From: an uncultured Oscillospiraceae bacterium
GTDB taxonomy: Bacteria > Bacillota_A > Clostridia > Oscillospirales > Oscillospiraceae
DNA: 24,916 bases
Direction: 5' to 3'
Assembly: GCA_944386965.1 (NCBI GenBank)
Contig: CALXDE010000103.1
Coordinates: 1 to 24,916, forward strand
The translations under genes were made by a program, and so were the position numbers. Under the pieces are notes generated by a model. The model ran no database searches and was not told the origin of the DNA. It was given only the letters and a program-made list of their open reading frames with translations. Positions 16,823 to 24,916 of the stretch are shown here, piece after piece (within the stretch, counting starts at the first letter, position 1; every line of letters starts with the position of its first letter).

Positions 16823-17856
16823 GAGACATCAAATCCATGACGCTGGAGGAGATCACCCAGGCGCTGCGGGAGCTGGGGGAACCAGCTTTCCGCGGAAAAC
16901 AGGTCTTCACCTGGCTCCACCGGGGCGCCGCCTCCTTTGAGGAGATGACCAATCTCTCCAAGCCCCTGCGGGAGAAGCTGGCGGCCTCCTTCTTGATCAC
17001 CGTTCCAAAGGTGGCCTGCAAGCAGGTTTCCCGCCTGGACGGAACCACCAAGTACCTCTGGGAACTGGGGGACGGCAACTGCATTGAAACGGTCCTCATG
17101 CACTATCACCACGGCAACACCGTGTGCATCTCCTCTCAGGTCGGCTGCCGCATGGGCTGCGCGTTCTGCGCCTCCACAGTTGGTGGCAAGGTTAGGAACT
17201 TGACACCAACTGAGATGCTGGACCAGGTGCTTTTTACCCAGCTGGACAGCGGAGAGACGATTTCCAACATTGTTTTGATGGGGATTGGAGAGCCTCTGGA
17301 CAACCTGGATACGGTGCTGCGCTTTCTCACCCTAGTGAACCATCCGGAGGGGCTGAACATCGGCATGCGGCACATCTCCCTCTCCACCTGCGGCCTGATC
17401 CCTGGGATTCGGCGGCTGGGGGAACTGGAATTGCAGCTCACCCTGTCTGTGTCCCTCCACGCTCCGGACAGCGAGACGCGCAGCAGGATCATGCCTGTCA
17501 ACCGCGCCTATGATGTAGAGGAATTGTTCGCGGTCTGCCGCTGGTACTTCCAGCGGACCGGGCGGCGGATCTCCTTTGAGTACGCCATGATCGACGGCGT
17601 CAACGACCACGACTGGCAGGCGGACCTGATCGCGAAAAATGTGCGCGGAATGCCGGCCCATGTGAACCTGATCCCGCTCAACGACGTGCGGGAGAGTCCG
17701 CTCAAGCCCAGCCGCCGCCTGTCGGCGTTCCAAAAGCGGCTGGAGAGTCACGGCCTTACCGCCACAGTCCGGCGGAGCCTGGGCGGAGATATCGACGCGG
17801 CCTGCGGCCAGCTGCGCAAGCGGGCGGCGGAGGCAAAGGGAGGAGAACCCCTGTGA
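16819..17856 (+). CDS. rlmN: Dual-specificity rRNA/tRNA adenine C2 methyltransferase (radical SAM)
   Basis: RlmN methylates C2 of A2503 in 23S rRNA and A37 of some tRNAs. The 345-residue protein has an N-terminal accessory domain, then the radical-SAM cluster motif CxxxCxxC at C110, C114 and C117 (CRMGCAFC), the MGIGEPLDN SAM-binding stretch, and the C-terminal methyl-carrying or resolving cysteine C329 in DAACGQL. These place it as RlmN rather than Cfr, which shares the fold; the conserved genomic context after rsmB also fits RlmN. The ATG at 16819 overlaps the rsmB stop. The last codon overlaps the GTG of the phosphatase gene. Confidence 0.95.
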   Translation: MRDIKSMTLEEITQALRELGEPAFRGKQVFTWLHRGAASFEEMTNLSKPLREKLAASFLITVPKVACKQVSRLDGTTKYLWELGDGNCIETVLMHYHHGNTVCISSQVGCRMGCAFCASTVGGKVRNLTPTEMLDQVLFTQLDSGETISNIVLMGIGEPLDNLDTVLRFLTLVNHPEGLNIGMRHISLSTCGLIPGIRRLGELELQLTLSVSLHAPDSETRSRIMPVNRAYDVEELFAVCRWYFQRTGRRISFEYAMIDGVNDHDWQADLIAKNVRGMPAHVNLIPLNDVRESPLKPSRRLSAFQKRLESHGLTATVRRSLGGDIDAACGQLRKRAAEAKGGEPL

Positions 17857-18596
17857 AAATGAAAGTCTGCGGCATGACAGATATCGGCTTGGTGCGTCGG
17901 CAAAACCAGGACGCTTACGGCGTGGATATCAACAGCGACACCGGGCAGGTCATCTGCGTGGTGTGCGACGGGATGGGCGGTCCCGCCGGCGGCGACATCG
18001 CCAGCCGCATCGCGGTGGACGCCTTCCTTCAGTCGGTAAAAGAGCATCTGCGTCCCGACATGGACCCGGAACGGGTCCGGGAGGTGTGCTCCTATGCGGC
18101 CAGTGTGGCCAACTCCGCTATCCGTCAGGAGGTGGAGGCCCGTGCCGAATACCGGGGCATGGGCACCACGCTGGTGGCGGCTGTCAGCTATGGCGATGGC
18201 GTGGTGGTTTCCAACATAGGGGACAGCCGGGCCTATCTCATCCAACCCCGCGGGATTCGCCGGGTCAGTAAGGACCACTCCCTGGTGGAGCGGCTGGTGG
18301 ACCGGGGCGATATCACCGAGGCGGAGGCCCGCACCCACCCCCAGCGCAACTACATCACCCGGGCCCTGGGACCGGAGGAAAATCCCCTGTGCGACGGGTT
18401 TATCGTCCCCATGGAGCGGGGGGACTTTATCCTCCTGTGCACCGATGGTCTGGTGGAGACGGTGACGGATCAGGAGATGTACGACGAGGTCCGCGCCGCA
18501 GCGGATATGGACCAGTGTCTCCGGCGTCTGCTGGAGATCTCCAAGGGCAACGGCGCGGCGGACAATGTGACCGCTGTGCTGATGCAGAAGCTGTGA
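17853..18596 (+). CDS. prpC: PP2C-type Ser/Thr protein phosphatase (Stp/PrpC)
   Basis: A 247-residue metal-dependent phosphatase that reverses phosphorylation by the PASTA kinase encoded next. PP2C motifs are in order: RRQNQD at residues 15-20, DGMGG at 39-43 (metal-binding D39), GDSRAYL, KDHSLV, CTDGL and GAADNVTAV. The start is assigned to GTG at 17853, in a 4-nt GTGA overlap with rlmN and with GGGAGGAG 7 bases upstream; the ATG at 17859 would shorten it by two residues and is too far from the ribosome site. The pairing and order with prkC are the standard Firmicutes arrangement. Confidence 0.95.
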   Translation: MKMKVCGMTDIGLVRRQNQDAYGVDINSDTGQVICVVCDGMGGPAGGDIASRIAVDAFLQSVKEHLRPDMDPERVREVCSYAASVANSAIRQEVEARAEYRGMGTTLVAAVSYGDGVVVSNIGDSRAYLIQPRGIRRVSKDHSLVERLVDRGDITEAEARTHPQRNYITRALGPEENPLCDGFIVPMERGDFILLCTDGLVETVTDQEMYDEVRAAADMDQCLRRLLEISKGNGAADNVTAVLMQKL

Positions 18597-18612: not shown

Positions 18613-20463
18613 ATGGAGCGATATATAGGGAAGATGCTGGACAACCGCTATGAGATTCTGGAGGTCATCGGCCAGGGCGGCATGGCGGTGGTGTTCAAGG
18701 CCAAGTGCCATCGCCTCAACCGTCTGGTGGCCATCAAGGTCTTAAAGCCCGAACTGGCGGACGACGCGGAGTTCCGCCGCCGGTTCCACGACGAGTCCCA
18801 GGCGGTCGCCATGCTCTCCCACCCCAATATTGTTTCGGTGTACGACGTGTCCAAGGGCGGTGGGCTGGAGTATATCGTCATGGAGCTGATCGACGGCATC
18901 ACCCTCAAGCAGTACATGGAACGCCGGGGACAGCTGAACTGGCGGGAGGCCCTCCACTTCATCACCCAGGTCATGCGGGCTCTGAGCCACGCCCACAGCC
19001 GCGGCATCATCCACCGGGACATCAAGCCCCAGAACATTATGATCCTGCGGGATGGCAGCGTGAAGGTGGCAGACTTTGGCATCGCCTGCCTCACCGCAAA
19101 AAACAGTCAGACCATGGCGGGGAAGGAGGCCATGGGCTCTGTCCATTACATCTCTCCGGAGCAGGCCAAGGGAGATCGGATTGACCAGCGCTCGGACATC
19201 TACTCCGCCGGTGTGGTGCTCTACGAGATGCTCACCAGCCGCCTGCCCTTTGAGGGGGATACGCCGGTGTCCATTGCCATCCAGCATTTCAGCGCCGTGC
19301 CCCTCAATCCCCGGGAGATCAACCCCGACATTCCCGAGGCCCTGGAGCTCATCTGTATGAAGGCCATGGCGCCCCAACTGGACCGGCGCTACCGCACGGC
19401 GGATGAGATGATCCGGGATCTGGAGGAGTTCCGGAAAAATCCGGATATCAATTTTGACTATGATATCCTGGATCTGCGGGGGGAGGCCCCCATGGATGAG
19501 CCCACCATGCTGCTCAATGCCAAGGAGCTTCAGGATCTCAGCAGCCGGGATGACCGGCACAGTCACGATCGGGAAGTCCGCAGGCGGTCTGCCTCCCCTT
19601 GGAAGCGGGCGCTGCTGGTGCTGCTGGGCATCACCGCTTCCGTCCTGGTCATCATCGGCGTCTACCGGGCGATCTTCAACAGCTTTGGCGGCAACGATAC
19701 CGGGGAATACGCGGTTCCCAACCTGCTCGGCATGACGCTGGAGGAGGCCTATCTGGATGAGCGCATCCTGACGGAGGAGGAGATGGCCCTGGAGGAACCG
19801 CCGGAGGGCAAATTTGAATTGAATGTGCTCCGGGAGACATACGACGCGGCGCCGGCGGGGGAGATCATTGACCAGAGTCCCGATCCGGGCACCACCCGGA
19901 AGAGCGACCTGGTGATCAGCGTCACCGTAAGCCTTGGGGAACAGACCGAGGAAATGCCGCGCCTGGTGGACCAGGAGCGGAACGCCGCGGAGGCTCTCCT
20001 GAACAGCCTGAAAAACACCACCGGCCTGGAGTTTGCGGTGGAGTGGGCGGAGCCGGTCTATCACGATACCATCGAGGCGGGCCGGGTCGTCTCCACAGAT
20101 CCCACCGAGGGAGAACCCATCCACAATGGGGACACGGTGACGATCGTAACCAGCAAGGGGCGGGAGCCGCAGCCTGTGACAATCATTCCCTTTGTGGGCA
20201 TGACCCAGGAACTGGCGGAGGAGAATCTCAAGAAAATGCAGCTGATCTATACCTTTGAGGAGGCGCCGGACAGCTCCTCTCCGGGCACCATCTTTGACCA
20301 GAGCATCCCTGCCGGCACCCAGGTGATGGAGGGCACCTCCATCACGCTGTATGTCAGTACCGGGCCCCTCTACGATCCGGAGGGGGTACGTCCCAGCGAC
20401 CCGGAGCCCCTTCCGGACGCGGAGGCCGGAGAGAGTACCGGTGATCGCGAGGACACGCCATGA
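18613..20463 (+). CDS. prkC: Membrane Ser/Thr kinase with PASTA domains
   Basis: A 616-residue PrkC/Stk-type kinase that senses muropeptides or lipid II outside the cell and controls wall synthesis, growth and spore germination. The kinase domain spans about residues 13-275, with ATP-binding K42 (VAIK), catalytic D136 (HRDIKPQN) and DFG at 154-156. A basic juxtamembrane linker precedes one membrane helix at about 333-353. Outside are three PASTA repeats, about 365-442, 443-515 and 516-590, the first two fairly divergent, then an acidic, proline-rich tail. GAAGGGAGGGAAG precedes the ATG. The stop overlaps rsgA by four bases. The number of PASTA units matches B. subtilis PrkC. Confidence 0.95.
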   Translation: MERYIGKMLDNRYEILEVIGQGGMAVVFKAKCHRLNRLVAIKVLKPELADDAEFRRRFHDESQAVAMLSHPNIVSVYDVSKGGGLEYIVMELIDGITLKQYMERRGQLNWREALHFITQVMRALSHAHSRGIIHRDIKPQNIMILRDGSVKVADFGIACLTAKNSQTMAGKEAMGSVHYISPEQAKGDRIDQRSDIYSAGVVLYEMLTSRLPFEGDTPVSIAIQHFSAVPLNPREINPDIPEALELICMKAMAPQLDRRYRTADEMIRDLEEFRKNPDINFDYDILDLRGEAPMDEPTMLLNAKELQDLSSRDDRHSHDREVRRRSASPWKRALLVLLGITASVLVIIGVYRAIFNSFGGNDTGEYAVPNLLGMTLEEAYLDERILTEEEMALEEPPEGKFELNVLRETYDAAPAGEIIDQSPDPGTTRKSDLVISVTVSLGEQTEEMPRLVDQERNAAEALLNSLKNTTGLEFAVEWAEPVYHDTIEAGRVVSTDPTEGEPIHNGDTVTIVTSKGREPQPVTIIPFVGMTQELAEENLKKMQLIYTFEEAPDSSSPGTIFDQSIPAGTQVMEGTSITLYVSTGPLYDPEGVRPSDPEPLPDAEAGESTGDREDTP

Positions 20464-21356
20464 GCCGGGGACAGATCGTCAAGGCCCTCAGCGGATTTTA
20501 TTACGTGGCGGCGGAGGATGGGGGCATCCTGTGCTGCCGGGCCCGGGGCAAATTCCGTAAGGACGGTATGTCCCCCCTGGTGGGGGACTGGGTGGAGGTC
20601 CGGGACATCGACGCGGATGGCCGCGGCATGGTCTGGACCATCGAAGAGAGGAGAAACGCCTTTACTCGGCCGGCGGTGGCCAATATCGACCAGCTGGTGG
20701 TGGTGGCGACCCACGCCATTCCGGAGACGGACCCGTTTCTCATTGACCGGGTTTCCTCCATCGCCGCGCTGAAGGGGTGTCCGACCCTCCTGGTCCTCAA
20801 CAAATGCGACCTGGACCCCTCGGAGGAGTTGCGGGCAATCTATGTGCGTGCCGGCATGACCACCGTCACCGTCAGCGCCCAGACCAGCGAGGGGATTGGG
20901 GAATTGATCCCGCTGCTTTCTGGAAAGCTGTCTGCCTTTACAGGCAACTCCGGCGTGGGCAAATCCAGTATTCTGAATGCCATCGAGCCGGATTTTGCCA
21001 TCAGCACCGGGGAAGTCAGCGAGAAGCTGGGCCGGGGCCGCCATACCACCCGCCATGTGGAGCTGTTTACCCTCTCCTGCGGGGCCCGGGTGGTGGATAC
21101 ACCGGGGTTCAGCTCGTTCGATGCCTCGGAGCTGAATCTGGAATGGAAGGAGCACCTGCCGGAAACTTTCCCGGAGTTCCGGCCCTATCTCAGCCAGTGC
21201 CGCTTTGTGGGGTGCAGTCACACCAGGGAGAAGGGCTGTGCCGTGCTCCGGGCGGTGAAGGACGGCCTGATCCCCAAGAGCCGGCACAGCAGCTACCTGC
21301 GGCTGTGTCAGGAGCTGAAAGATGTGAAGGCTTGGGAACAAAAAGAAAATCGGTGA
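20460..21356 (+). CDS. rsgA: Small ribosomal subunit biogenesis GTPase RsgA
   Basis: A 298-residue circularly permuted GTPase that binds the 30S subunit late in assembly. In order: N-terminal OB fold (about 1-70), the G4 motif NKCD at residues 114-117, then the P-loop GNSGVGKS at 162-169 and DTPGFSSFD, and a C-terminal zinc finger with C, C, H and C in CRFVGCSHTREKGC. The G4-before-G1 order is the family hallmark. The ATG overlaps the prkC stop; PrkC phosphorylates RsgA (CpgA) in B. subtilis, so the coupling may be functional. rpe and thiN, which usually follow in Bacillus, are missing here. A strong hairpin follows ten bases after the stop. Confidence 0.96.
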   Translation: MSRGQIVKALSGFYYVAAEDGGILCCRARGKFRKDGMSPLVGDWVEVRDIDADGRGMVWTIEERRNAFTRPAVANIDQLVVVATHAIPETDPFLIDRVSSIAALKGCPTLLVLNKCDLDPSEELRAIYVRAGMTTVTVSAQTSEGIGELIPLLSGKLSAFTGNSGVGKSSILNAIEPDFAISTGEVSEKLGRGRHTTRHVELFTLSCGARVVDTPGFSSFDASELNLEWKEHLPETFPEFRPYLSQCRFVGCSHTREKGCAVLRAVKDGLIPKSRHSSYLRLCQELKDVKAWEQKENR

Positions 21357-21365
21357 TCATGCGCG

Positions 21366-21396
21366 CCGGCCGGAGGAACCCCTCCGGCCGGTTCTC
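21366..21396 (+). terminator. Probable intrinsic terminator after rsgA
   Basis: A perfect 11-bp GC-rich stem (21366-21376 with 21381-21391) with an AACC tetraloop lies shortly after the rsgA stop. The tail TTCTCACTAT has few T residues, so termination could be incomplete. A TATACT box at 21399-21404 follows, but no -35 box lies at the right distance, so I do not call a promoter. Confidence 0.6.
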
Positions 21397-21435
21397 ACTA
21401 TACTGGTAGAGAACAGCGGAGAGGAGGGGCAACCT

Positions 21436-21585
21436 TTGTGCAATAAGCATTGGCTGATGGGGGTGTTCGCCCTGTGCCTGGGGCTTGGGATCTTCATCTG
21501 CGCCATCTTCCCCACGGGGCTGCTCCTGTTTCTGGTGGCATCCCTGCTGGTGGGGTGTGGCTGGGCCTGTATCAGACGACGGTAA
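21436..21585 (+). CDS. Small two-helix membrane protein of unknown function
   Basis: A 49-residue open frame starting with TTG, preceded by GAGGAGGGG (21421-21429) at good spacing, and ending with TAA that overlaps the ribosome site of spoVM. The protein is almost all hydrophobic: positions 8-24 and 28-44 form two probable membrane helices joined by an FPTG turn. Charges are confined to the ends (NKH near the start, RRR at the end), so both ends should lie in the cytoplasm by the positive-inside rule. It contains five cysteines. I do not recognise the family. Placement immediately before spoVM and a SipL-like gene suggests a possible sporulation or forespore-membrane role, which is inference. 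An internal ATG at 21457 would give a shorter form. Confidence 0.65.
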   Translation: MCNKHWLMGVFALCLGLGIFICAIFPTGLLLFLVASLLVGCGWACIRRR

Positions 21586-21599
21586 AGGAGGAACTTCGG

Positions 21600-21674
21600 A
21601 TGCGCATCGTCATTGTCAAACCGCCCAAAATCGTTGGGGAGCTCCTGCGGAAAATCCTGAAAATCAAGGCATGA
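21600..21674 (+). CDS. spoVM: Stage V sporulation protein SpoVM (24 residues)
   Basis: A 24-residue amphipathic peptide beginning MRIVIVKPPKIVGELL and ending in a basic stretch. It has the SpoVM pattern: a short hydrophobic start, a Lys-Pro-Pro-Lys segment matching the KLPKFLGG core with its key proline of the Bacillus protein, and a basic amphipathic helix. SpoVM inserts into the convex forespore outer membrane, senses curvature and recruits SpoIVA to build the coat base. The ribosome site AAAGGAGG (21584-21591) is near perfect with an 8-base spacer. In B. subtilis spoVM also lies downstream of prpC-prkC-rsgA(cpgA)-rpe-thiN, so position supports the call. It is short enough to be missed by most gene callers. 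Confidence 0.85.
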   Translation: MRIVIVKPPKIVGELLRKILKIKA

Positions 21675-21697
21675 AGCTTCGCTCTCCCTCATACACT
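21668..21697 (+). promoter_or_regulatory. Candidate sigma-E promoter for the sipL-like gene
   Basis: CATACACT at 21690-21697 matches the sigma-E -10 consensus CATACAHT at every position. Fourteen bases upstream, GGCATGAA (21668-21675) partly matches the -35 element KMATATT (first four positions fit). Transcription would begin near 21704, some 27 bases before the ATG at 21731. The -35 part overlaps the last codons of spoVM. SipL-type and SpoVM genes belong to mother-cell sporulation programmes, which fits sigma-E. Confidence 0.5.
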
Positions 21698-21730
21698 GTC
21701 CATGACAAGAGCGTCAGAGGGAGGAGAGCA

Positions 21731-23275
21731 ATGGAACTGAATCTGAAAAAAGAGGCTTTTACATACTACGAGGCGGTCAGTGAGGCGCCAGTCTCCTTTG
21801 AAACCACCCAGGAAACCATTGTCCCGGACTACTGTCAGGATGTGGCCCGGGTGGTGGACACCACCGGCATGGTACTGGTGCACAACAAAGAGATGACTCC
21901 CGATGGCCGCATGGAGGTGGGCGGCGCCATCAAGGCCACCGTCCTCTTCATCCCCGAGGGTGGGACACAGCTGTGCGCGCTGCACCTGTCAATCCCATTT
22001 CACAGCTACTGCGAGGGCCGAAATCTCGCCGCGTGCAGCCGCTGTACCGTCAGCGCCAGCCTCAAGAGCATCGACTCGCGGCTCCTCAACCCCCGGAAAC
22101 TGCTGACCAGAGCGGAAATCATCCTGGAGAGCACGGGTTATCGGCAGCAGGAGGCCAGCCTGTGTACGGCGGTGGAGGCCGACGAGGCGTACGGACTGCA
22201 GGTGCTGGAGGAGCGCGCGGAAACCACAGTGATTTCCGATATTCTGGAGCGGGAATTTCCCTACACCGAGGAGCTGAATCTCTCCGCCGGACGCAGCGGC
22301 ATCCAGGAAATTCTGGATACCGCCACCTGCCTCTATCCGGCGGACTCCAAGATCGTTGGGAACAAGCTGGTGCTCAAGGGCATCATCCGCAGTGACGTGC
22401 TCTACCGGGACCAGGACGGGGCGATCGCCACCCTGACCCAGGAATTTCTGTTCTCCCAGATTGCGGAAACCGGCGCCTCTGAGGAGACGGGGATGGCAAA
22501 AGCCGCCTTCGACCTCACGGGATATGAGTATCTCATCGGCACGGAGAGCGAACCGGAGGACACCCACGCCATCACCATGTCCCTGCATATCCGCTCCAGC
22601 GCGGAAGTTTTGGAGACTAAACCGCTGCGGTTTCTATCGGATCTGTACAGCATCTCCAAAAATGTATCCCTCACCACGCAGCCGCTTCCCCTGGTGGAGG
22701 ATGTGCGCTCCTTCACCAAGAAGCAGAATATGCGGGAGACACTGGAAACCGCCGTGGCGGTGCGGCAGGTCTGTCATGTCGCCGTGTCCTGCGGGGCCTG
22801 TTCCTGTCAGGTGGGGGATGGCATGGCCGCCGCCCAGATCCCCGTGACCATCAAGGCGCTCTACCTGGATGAAAATGACGCGGTGCTGCTGGCGGAAAAA
22901 AATATTCTGGTGAAAGGGGAGCTGGAGGCGGGGGAGGGGAGCCTTCCCCACATCACCCTCCGCTGTCCGGGAGAGATTACCGGCGCGCCTTCACCGGAGG
23001 GCATGGAGATCCGCTTCACCCTGGAATTCTGGATGGATACAGGGCGGCAGATCCAAAAGCTGTGTATCGCGGACGCCTCTCTGGAGGAGGCGGAGCCCGG
23101 CGCCCAGCGGCAGCCCTCGGTGATCCTGCGGAAGTTTGACCGGGGCCTGCGGCTCTGGGACATTGCCAAGCAGTACCGCACCACCTGTGCGGATATCCTC
23201 TCGGCCAACCAGGTGGAGAGCGAACAGACCATCCCCACGGACAAATTGCTGCTGATTCCCCGGCGAAAGGCCTGA
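21731..23275 (+). CDS. sipL: SipL-like spore coat morphogenesis protein (DUF3794 repeats + LysM)
   Basis: A 514-residue protein with about three DUF3794-type beta-rich repeats (roughly residues 25-110, 165-250 and 325-420) and one C-terminal LysM domain in the last 48 residues (RGLRLWDIAKQYRTTCADIL ... IPTDKLLLIP). This is the architecture of C. difficile SipL, which binds SpoIVA through LysM and anchors the coat to the forespore, replacing SpoVID of Bacillus. The start at 21731 (MELNLKKEA) has GGGAGGAG five bases upstream. A second in-frame ATG at 21671 overlaps the spoVM stop as ATGA and would add 20 basic residues, but it lacks a spaced ribosome site. Its neighbour SpoVM acts on the same SpoIVA platform. 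Confidence 0.85.
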   Translation: MELNLKKEAFTYYEAVSEAPVSFETTQETIVPDYCQDVARVVDTTGMVLVHNKEMTPDGRMEVGGAIKATVLFIPEGGTQLCALHLSIPFHSYCEGRNLAACSRCTVSASLKSIDSRLLNPRKLLTRAEIILESTGYRQQEASLCTAVEADEAYGLQVLEERAETTVISDILEREFPYTEELNLSAGRSGIQEILDTATCLYPADSKIVGNKLVLKGIIRSDVLYRDQDGAIATLTQEFLFSQIAETGASEETGMAKAAFDLTGYEYLIGTESEPEDTHAITMSLHIRSSAEVLETKPLRFLSDLYSISKNVSLTTQPLPLVEDVRSFTKKQNMRETLETAVAVRQVCHVAVSCGACSCQVGDGMAAAQIPVTIKALYLDENDAVLLAEKNILVKGELEAGEGSLPHITLRCPGEITGAPSPEGMEIRFTLEFWMDTGRQIQKLCIADASLEEAEPGAQRQPSVILRKFDRGLRLWDIAKQYRTTCADILSANQVESEQTIPTDKLLLIPRRKA

Positions 23276-23345: not shown

Positions 23346-23774
23346 TCAGACCTCCACCGGCGCCTCACGGCTTTGAAACGCCAGTTCCGCCAAGTATTTG
23401 ATCACGTCCCGGCGGGTGACGATGCCGCAAAAGCAGTTCCGGTCGTCCACAATGGGCACAAAGTTCTGCTTCTGAATCTGTTCCAGCACGTCCTCCAGTG
23501 ACGCCACAATCGTCAGAGGCGGGCAGAAATCCTGGCGCATAATCTCCCGGATCTTATACTGCTCATGGACCTTCAGGTCCACCGTCTCGGTCTGGAGCAG
23601 GTGGCGGAGGAAATCTCCCTCACTGATGCAGCCGAAGAACTCGCCGCTCTCGGTGAGGACCGGAATGGCGGTGTAGCCGTGGTGCTTGAACTTTTCCAGG
23701 CCCTGCCGCACAGTCTGGGACTCCAGCAGGTAGATGGAATTGGCCTTTGGGGTCAAAAATTTCGCAATATTCAC
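23346..23774 (-). CDS. Stand-alone CBS-domain protein
   Basis: A 142-residue protein made of two CBS motifs (about residues 7-66 and 78-135), with the typical 'AIPVLTESGEFFGCISEGDFL' and 'FVPIVDDRNCFCGIVTRRDVI' strand-helix patterns. Paired CBS motifs form a Bateman module that binds adenine nucleotides or cyclic di-AMP. The start is GTG, with AAAGGAGG (23784-23791 region, reverse strand) nine bases upstream. It lies 22 bases after the amino-acid transporter ATPase and is probably its operon partner. In glycine-betaine importers a similar module is fused to the ATPase and shuts transport; a regulatory role here is inferred. The ligand is unknown. Confidence 0.9.
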   Translation of the reverse strand: MNIAKFLTPKANSIYLLESQTVRQGLEKFKHHGYTAIPVLTESGEFFGCISEGDFLRHLLQTETVDLKVHEQYKIREIMRQDFCPPLTIVASLEDVLEQIQKQNFVPIVDDRNCFCGIVTRRDVIKYLAELAFQSREAPVEV

Positions 23775-23796
23775 CGGGGATATCCTCCTTTGCGCC

Positions 23797-24582
23797 TCAG
23801 GAACCGGAGTAGTTGGAGAGGAACTGTCTGGTGCGTTCCTCTTTGGGGTGGTCGATCAGATCATGGGCCGGCCCCTCCTCCACGATGTAGCCCCCATCCA
23901 TAAAAATGATGCGGTCGGCCACATCCCGGGCAAAGGCCATCTCATGGGTGACAATGATCATGGTGGTCTTCTGTTCGGCAAGGCTTCGGATCACCCGCAG
24001 GACCTCGCCGGTGAGCTCCGGGTCCAGGGCGCTGGTGGGCTCGTCGAAGCAGAGAATGTCCGGGTGGAGGGCCAGGGCCCGGGCGATGGCCACCCGCTGC
24101 TGCTGGCCGCCGGAGAGCTGGCTGGGGTAGTGGTTGGCCCGGTCGGAGAGTCCCATCCGGGCCAACAGTTCCCGGCCCTCGTCCTGGATCTCCTCCAGGA
24201 TCTGCTTTCTGTTCTCCTTGAAGTCCGGCCGCTCCTGGCTCAGCAGCTCCTTGGCCAGGGTGACGTTTTTCAGGGCCGTATACTGGGGGAAGAGGTTGAA
24301 GGACTGGAACACCAAACCGAAGTGGAGGCGCTTTTTCCGCACCTCGCTCTCCCGCTGGGTATCCGGGTCCTCCGCGTCAAAAATCACATTGCCCCCCACG
24401 GAGATGGTACCGCGGTCCGGCTTCTCCAGGAAATTGAGGCACCGCAGCAGGGTGGTCTTGCCGCTGCCGGAGGAGCCGATGATGGCGATGGCCTGCCCCT
24501 GTTCCAGGGAGAAGCTGATATCGTTGAGGACCTGGGTGGCCCCAAAGTGCTTTTCGATATTGTGTACTTCCAAAATTGCCAT
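23797..24582 (-). CDS. Polar amino-acid ABC transporter ATP-binding protein
   Basis: A 261-residue GlnQ/HisP-type ATPase that powers a polar amino-acid importer at the cytoplasmic face. Walker A GSSGSGKT is at residues 36-43, then the Q-loop ([19 protein letters not shown]), the signature LSGGQQQRV, Walker [15 protein letters not shown] and the switch histidine in VTHEMAFA. The run [17 protein letters not shown] and short length are typical of this subfamily. The start at 24582 ([14 protein letters not shown]) has AGGAGGG nine bases upstream; the frame is open into the permease, but that part is not conserved. The exact substrate (Gln, Glu, Cys or other) cannot be told. Confidence 0.94.
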
Positions 24583-24599
24583 GGGATCACGCCCTCCTC

Positions 24600-24916
24600 T
24601 CACTGGAAATAGCTGAGCTTCCGCTCCACCCAACCAAAGAGCAGGGTGAGCAGGCCGTTGAACAGCAGAAAATAGACACCTGTGAAGAACAGCGGCCAGA
24701 TCAGCCCGGAGTAGCCGTGGGAGCCCTTCAGGAAGGCGTAGCCCGCCCAGATGACCTCCTGGAAGGAGATGATGCGGGCAATGGAGGTATCCTTCACCAG
24801 GGTGATGATCTCGTTGGACATGGGGGGCACGATCCGCTTGATCATCTGCAGCAGCGTCACATGGCGGAAAATCTGATGTTTGGTCATGCCCAGCACCTGG
24901 CCGGCCTCCTGCTGGC
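24600..24916 (-). CDS. Amino-acid ABC transporter permease (partial, 5' end outside window)
   Basis: The C-terminal 105 residues of a HisM/GlnP-type permease. The frame stays open to the window edge, so the N-terminus and the usual substrate-binding protein gene lie outside. The EAA loop that docks onto the ATPase is visible: EAGQVLGMT, then the conserved [10 protein letters not shown] helix start, followed by a last membrane helix ([19 protein letters not shown]) and the family end [10 protein letters not shown]. It is 17 bases upstream of the ATPase in the direction of transcription, so they form one operon. Confidence 0.93.

Follow-up and report, generated by a model that had tools for sequence, protein, structure and literature searches.

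Does the 25-codon frame that lies behind rsgA in a contig of an uncultured Oscillospiraceae bacterium encode SpoVM, and which genes form the block around it? We analysed the whole stretch of 24,916 nucleotides, here called the window, together with related genomes. The best explanation is that the frame is spoVM, the gene of a coat-base peptide within one block of base-layer genes, and we give this reading a probability of roughly 94%.

The frame, 21600-21674 on the forward strand, encodes the 24 residues MRIVIVKPPKIVGELLRKILKIKA followed by a stop codon. An earlier note on this DNA had described a ribosome site eight bases before the ATG, a frame of 25 codons and a KPPK motif. All three are present, with eight bases between AAAGGAGG, a strong ribosome site, and the start codon and with the motif at residues 7-10. 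The peptide is short (24 residues, i.e. below 30), basic and amphipathic, with seven basic residues and one acidic residue as read from the sequence. It matches the NCBIfam model SpoVM_broad (NF033436), a search that the earlier note had suggested, over residues 1-23 with an E-value of 2.3e-6, though the score of 27.5 bits misses the curated cut-off of 31 bits.

A Pfam search of the peptide gives no match, and when its 24 residues alone are searched against the PDB, a designed protein comes up but no SpoVM. A profile of 37 SpoVM-like peptides, including that of the window, finds the B. subtilis SpoVM structure 2mvh in PDB with an E-value of 2.1e-6; the alignment is ungapped over residues 1-21 and places Pro9 on Pro9. 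The second PDB match of the profile is 2mvj, which has an alanine at the Pro9 place. All 37 profile peptides match SpoVM_broad at E <= 1.

Pro9 is found in the window peptide and in 83 of 84 SpoVM copies extracted from the family, the exception having a doubtful start codon. According to the C. difficile SpoVM paper, Pro9 is the sole fully conserved residue. Residue 6 is a valine in the window peptide and in 48/84 family copies, and an isoleucine in 12/84. Ile6 of B. subtilis SpoVM is required for SpoIVA binding, according to the same paper, and valine for isoleucine is a conservative change. The family model (below its cut-off), the profile match to a solved SpoVM, Pro9 and the surrounding genes, with rsgA and other coat-base genes near the frame, all support the name given in the earlier note. 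Against it count the score below the cut-off, the Pfam and PDB searches with the peptide by itself, Val6, the 54 of 149 sipL loci read in which no spoVM is recognised, and the C. difficile SpoVM, described as largely dispensable. The peptide is very probably the spore coat peptide SpoVM, and it appears to be an ordinary if divergent member, an identity as settled as sequence can make it.

Table 1. Features of the window around spoVM. Positions are those of the window.
Feature	Positions	Strand	Evidence or remark
prpC, PP2C-type phosphatase	17853..18596	+	NF033484, 248.5 bits, above cut-off
prkC, PASTA-domain Ser/Thr kinase	18613..20463	+	NF033483, 545.3 bits, above cut-off
rsgA, ribosome small subunit-dependent GTPase	20460..21356	+	TIGR00157, 201.1 bits, above cut-off
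Inverted repeat GGCCGGAGG-CCTCCGGCC, 3' of rsgA, terminator-like	21368..21389	+	Intact in L001; paired change at stem base in L002
Candidate -10 box CTATACTGG of micropeptide gene	21398..21406	+	One base off the family pattern
49-residue micropeptide gene, two-helix model, TTG start	21436..21585	+	Absent from the ORF list; profile, context and model
Ribosome site AAAGGAGG of spoVM	21584..21591	+	Read from sequence
spoVM, 24 residues (very probable)	21600..21674	+	SpoVM_broad match, profile match, Pro9
Candidate sipL promoter and hairpin	21684..21723	+	-10-like CATACACT at 21690-21697; arms CTCCCTC 21684-21690 and GAGGGAG 21717-21723
sipL, SpoIVA-interacting protein L, 514 aa	21731..23275	+	PF12673, E 2.8e-15; PF01476, 21.1 bits; both over cut-off

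The gene order on the forward strand is rlmN, prpC, prkC, rsgA, a 49-codon gene, the 24-residue frame and sipL, Table 1. The frame lies downstream of prpC-prkC-rsgA, the place that the earlier note gives for spoVM of B. subtilis, and all three genes score over the cut-offs of their models. Two neighbours had been overlooked: the 49-codon gene between rsgA and spoVM, whose stop codon overlaps the spoVM ribosome site, and sipL downstream of spoVM. The product of the latter has matches to the SPOCS domain and a C-terminal LysM domain, both passing the Pfam cut-offs, which identifies it as SipL. In the nearest genome (G001) spoIVA is located 3.5 kb beyond sipL, and therefore spoIVA of the window would fall past the 3' end. 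The SpoVM-SpoIVA coat base proposed in the earlier note keeps both of its members and has to be widened to SpoVM, SipL and SpoIVA. After sipL, an inverted CBS-domain gene and an ABC transporter gene occupy 23346-24633 of the reverse strand; in many relatives spoIVA is found directly at this place.

A SipL search of genome contigs identified two close relatives, L001 and L002 (88% and 87%), both from uncultured Oscillospiraceae. Both carry an unbroken spoVM frame in the corresponding position, free of indels, with peptide identities of 83% and 75%, respectively. The synonymous and nonsynonymous codon changes number 10 and 4 between the window and L001, 7 and 6 between the window and L002, and 10 and 3 between L001 and L002. 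When SpoVM genes of the family are compared in 207 pairs, not independent of each other, with a peptide identity of at least 70%, 2661 base differences fall on the third codon position, 1113 on the first and 533 on the second. The conservation in relatives that the earlier note had asked about is thus found, as an unbroken frame and as a third-position bias.

A different explanation is that the frame encodes no coat peptide and either is open by chance or serves as a leader peptide of sipL. With 25 codons it is short, its end is 56 nt from sipL, a possible leader position, and the gap between the two holds a possible hairpin. Against this stand the conservation of the amino acids with a third-position bias, the matches to SpoVM models and, via relatives, to the solved SpoVM, and the similar frames that follow the 49-codon gene in a class-wide sample, mostly without an adjoining sipL in the loci seen. 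We consider this explanation scarcely credible, and both the chance frame and the pure leader peptide were rejected on the conservation and the family matches.

The nearest relatives also bear on the lifestyle of the organism. Each of the two nearest genomes contains SpoIVA and Spo0A, and one of them GPR and SASP, and therefore it is likely, by inference from these relatives, that the window organism sporulates.

To place spoVM among its neighbours, we used a sample of 200 genomes from the family of G001. The SpoVM model matches 114 of these genomes at E <= 1 and only 17 over its cut-off; a sipL profile and SpoIVA each match 169 of 200. The cross-tables cover, among the matches listed, 150 for sipL (149 genomes), 150 for SpoIVA and 111 of 150 for the SpoVM model; the other 39 score at most 13.8 bits and, by eye, none of them lies before a listed sipL. 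A SpoVM-model match precedes 82 of the 150 listed sipL matches on the same strand, at a distance of 57-303 nt and with scores down to 12.4 bits. Because most of these 82 also miss the cut-off, it is the cut-off that we question and not the identity. In the best 30 family loci sipL follows spoVM in all 30, and rsgA lies upstream in 21, several of the loci reaching only a short way in that direction. Among the listed matches there are 67 cases of spoIVA and sipL on the same contig, and in 46 of them the two point the same way with under 400 nt between them.

We read 149 regions upstream of sipL: 82 with a model match, 65 without, the window and L002. The 65 come from 68 loci without a model match, three sipL loci at contig ends being left out. 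The profile start of sipL is not a start codon in 12/149, therefore some spacer lengths are approximate. A home-made SpoVM profile, built from the extracted copies, finds eleven more SpoVM in the 65 unmatched loci (above 10 bits), with none on the reverse strand and none in shuffled sequences. In total, spoVM is recognised upstream of sipL in 95 of the 149 regions.

The coupling to sipL in the family, together with Val6, can also be taken to mean that the peptide descends from SpoVM with a shifted role, acting with SipL and the 49-residue product and no longer as the main recruiter of SpoIVA. In 54 of the 149 regions read, no spoVM is recognised before sipL, and in C. difficile, according to the C. 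difficile SpoVM paper, SpoVM is largely dispensable and SipL is required. However, Pro9 and the overall pattern are kept, spoIVA is often near, and the same paper describes C. difficile SpoVM as still binding SpoIVA in an assay. A shifted role is possible but, in our judgement, doubtful.

The 49-codon gene belongs to a family of small hydrophobic frames upstream of sipL. Its members are some 50 residues long and charged at both ends, with two hydrophobic stretches in between, and we refer to them as the micropeptide. Forty members were picked by hand from a list of small frames and used to build a profile; Gly16, Pro26 and Gly42 (window numbering) are invariant in all forty. At 15 bits or more the profile finds the micropeptide in 106 of the 149 regions, 71 of these with sequences outside the profile, whereas the opposite strand and shuffled versions of the 149 regions give no match. 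The micropeptide is found in 60 of the 95 regions with spoVM and not found in 35; it is also present, 56-186 nt before sipL, in 46 of the 54 regions without a recognised spoVM, and eight regions have neither. According to an AlphaFold2 model of the window copy, two helices (4-23 and 26-48) are separated by a break at Pro26, at moderate confidence (pLDDT 73.6, pTM 0.39).

The window micropeptide passes no curated cut-off, its best scores being 12.1 against 33 bits for Pfam (DUF6249) and 11.5 against 240 bits for NCBIfam, and we rejected its assignment to a known family of either database. The 40 members show scattered weak matches to Pfam and NCBIfam, the best with an E-value of 2.8e-4 in one member. 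Homologues in a protein collection (120 of 227 listed) are unnamed or 'hypothetical', with a few generic or doubtful labels. In the open-licence literature we found the family undescribed beyond C. difficile CD25622, which may be a member and agrees with it in size and place.

For a wider view we used 216 genomes from the class of G001, which we take to be Clostridia, as for Oscillospiraceae in general. SpoVM_broad matches 85 of these genomes at E <= 0.05, five of them over the cut-off. As the cut-off is passed in only 17/200 family and 5/216 class genomes, it is plausible that spoVM is unannotated in the genome record, as the earlier note suggests. The micropeptide profile matches 62 of 216 genomes at E <= 0.001, and 27 of 64 listed micropeptide matches sit 7-79 nt before a SpoVM-model match. 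This class-wide comparison took in a part of the sipL matches, and its neighbour counts are those for the SpoVM model. By this profile no micropeptide-SpoVM pair is found in 58 of the 85 genomes with a SpoVM-model match; in these the gene may be missing, the reach of the profile too short or the weak SpoVM-model matches false.

We read 18 of the 27 paired loci and 35 of the 37 unpaired ones, omitting one additional place in G256 and one additional, weak match in G408. The search for frames behind the micropeptide covered those with a proline at residues 7-11. A SpoVM-like frame directly follows the micropeptide in 23 of the 35 unmatched loci, with the proline at residue 9 in 17 and at residue 8 in six (L200, L201, L205, L206, L210, L213). 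The other twelve have no such frame. One of them, in G359, has an open frame of 675 codons and is probably a false micropeptide match. The remaining eleven are L183, L185, L186, L189, L191, L195, L198, L199, L204, L208 and L211; none of these genomes is among the SpoVM_broad matches at E <= 0.05, and SpoIVA is found in ten of them. G365 and G318 contain a block of micropeptide, spoVM, sipL and spoIVA. Judged by coordinates, a divergent spoIVA lies beside the micropeptide-spoVM pair in L217, L222, L223 and L225 (G397, G251, G217 and G352).

The micropeptide could instead be no sporulation protein at all, and belong to a translation neighbourhood of rsgA or rpmB. In the two loci without spoVM that we checked, rpmB (ribosomal protein L28) adjoins it on the other strand, SpoIVA is not matched in five of the 62 micropeptide genomes, and the 58 class genomes without a pair point the same way. 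In C. difficile, a polar insertion in CD25622, if this is a family member, appeared no worse than the loss of SpoVM alone (PMC5607322). On the other side, SpoIVA is found in 57/62 micropeptide genomes and in 98/154 of the others (Fisher p 1e-5, kinship uncorrected), and in many loci of both samples the micropeptide stands directly before spoVM or sipL. In addition, the C. difficile gene at the micropeptide place is described as cotranscribed with spoVM, itself under sigma-E control. We regard a translation neighbourhood in place of a sporulation role as quite unlikely.

The spaces before the micropeptide gene and before sipL contain candidate promoters. The motif CATAnnnT resembles the sigma-E -10 consensus. 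It occurs within 95 nt before sipL in 110 of 149 regions, compared with 9 in the reverse complement and 12.4 in shuffled sequences; some matches further upstream may be parts of -35 elements. Before the micropeptide it is found in 42 of 98 regions (13 reverse, 6.1 shuffled), and a looser -10-like box in 84 of 100, in many of them enclosed in a hairpin loop. Stem scores average 22.2, compared with 15.0 for shuffled sequences, and 43 of 84 reach p <= 0.05. The arms vary between genomes with the pairing kept, and in 37 of the 45 strongest hairpins the 3' arm carries a ribosome-site-like motif, often followed by T. Such an element could possibly combine a terminator, a promoter and a mask of the Shine-Dalgarno (SD) site, and the hairpin may in part just be the rsgA terminator. 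A promoter-like box in a hairpin loop is seen at 21379-21429 of the window and also upstream of micropeptides in L036-L152.

In the window itself the layout is less clean, with a perfect inverted repeat before the box, a box one base off and competing folds. In one of two alternative folds, 21379-21385 pairs with the micropeptide ribosome site at 21423-21429 and CTATACTGG lies inside; a longer fold prefers the inverted repeat over this SD-pairing hairpin. A consensus scan for sigma-70 promoters and terminators finds nothing in this region, the inverted repeat included, and an Rfam search of 21300-21800 gives nothing at E <= 1.

Before sipL, the GAGGGAG arm overlaps the ribosome site. The mean stem score is 15.7 here, compared with 13.2 for swapped arms and 12.7 for shuffles, and 50 of 148 loci reach p <= 0.05. 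A control stretch further upstream of sipL has no stem excess (13.9 against 13.8). The predicted pairing of the SD site is 0.59, compared with 0.50 with a swapped 5' part, and the window's own hairpin has p 0.1 and a fold z of -1.47. The SD-hiding hairpin before sipL is thus a weak signal, weaker than the one before the micropeptide. The 42 consecutive bases 21684-21725, which contain CATACACT within the inverted repeat, are identical in the window, L001 and L002.

For the window peptide, curvature sensing, SpoIVA binding and mother-cell expression would carry over from its family. SpoVM, with a kink at Pro9, would most likely sit on the outer forespore membrane, on the side that faces the mother cell, and would mark this convex surface for the coat's base layer. 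There it would be joined by SipL and SpoIVA and perhaps by the micropeptide. Its gene stands in a single block of base-layer genes, made up of the gene of the two-helix micropeptide, spoVM and sipL, with spoIVA beyond it in the nearest genome.

We also propose, tentatively, a joint reading that goes further and that we hold possible rather than probable: the micropeptide would be an unrecognised sporulation membrane protein, widespread in the class, and a partner of SpoVM at the surface of the forespore. Where a lineage has no spoVM, it would take over, from its place before sipL or rpmB, the task of anchoring the SipL-SpoIVA base layer to the membrane. A hairpin-promoter switch would serve both the micropeptide gene and sipL. 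Read-through RNA of the rsgA operon would fold and hide the ribosome site, or end before it, and RNA from a sporulation promoter, lacking the 5' arm, would be translated.

What is new here is the partner peptide, its presence without a recognised spoVM, and the layout with a promoter in a hairpin; the functions we give them are inferred. Gene order uncovers many SpoVM below the standard model cut-off, and a second small protein is often found beside SpoVM and also where SpoVM is not recognised. The micropeptide is a concrete candidate for coat anchoring in clostridia without SpoVM. A 2012 survey (PMC3533761) had not decided whether clostridia without a detected SpoVM carry distant versions of it. 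In the open-licence literature we found nothing on SpoVM in Oscillospiraceae or Ruminococcaceae, and PMC5607322 alone on CD25622 or the spoVM neighbourhood.

Compared with SpoVM of B. subtilis, the window peptide has the same basic amphipathic pattern, Pro9 and, through the family profile, an ungapped alignment over 21 residues. The B. subtilis gene likewise has the rsgA region upstream. The B. subtilis peptide differs in having 26 residues and Ile6, whereas the window peptide has 24 residues and Val6 and scores below the curated model cut-off. The downstream gene of the window resembles SipL in passing the cut-offs for both PF12673 and LysM, and differs in that it is coupled to spoVM in the family sample. 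SipL is reported as absent from Bacilli in the C. difficile SpoVM paper, and in the window sipL follows spoVM.

The pair of CD25622 and spoVM in C. difficile is the closest parallel to the micropeptide in size and place. According to PMC5607322, CD25622 has 50 residues and an unknown function, precedes spoVM and is mainly found in Peptostreptococcaceae, and its disruption was polar on spoVM and resembled the loss of SpoVM alone. The window has a 49-residue gene at this place. In contrast, spoVM of C. difficile is near rpmB and that of the window near sipL, and the micropeptide family extends to 62 of the 216 class genomes. For the hairpin, the sigG leader of B. subtilis offers a comparison. 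There, a large hairpin is proposed to keep read-through transcripts from being translated, and RNA started at sigG's own promoter is unable to form it (PMC5942855). The candidate elements before the micropeptide differ in having a -10-like box in the loop and a 3' arm that is often followed by T.
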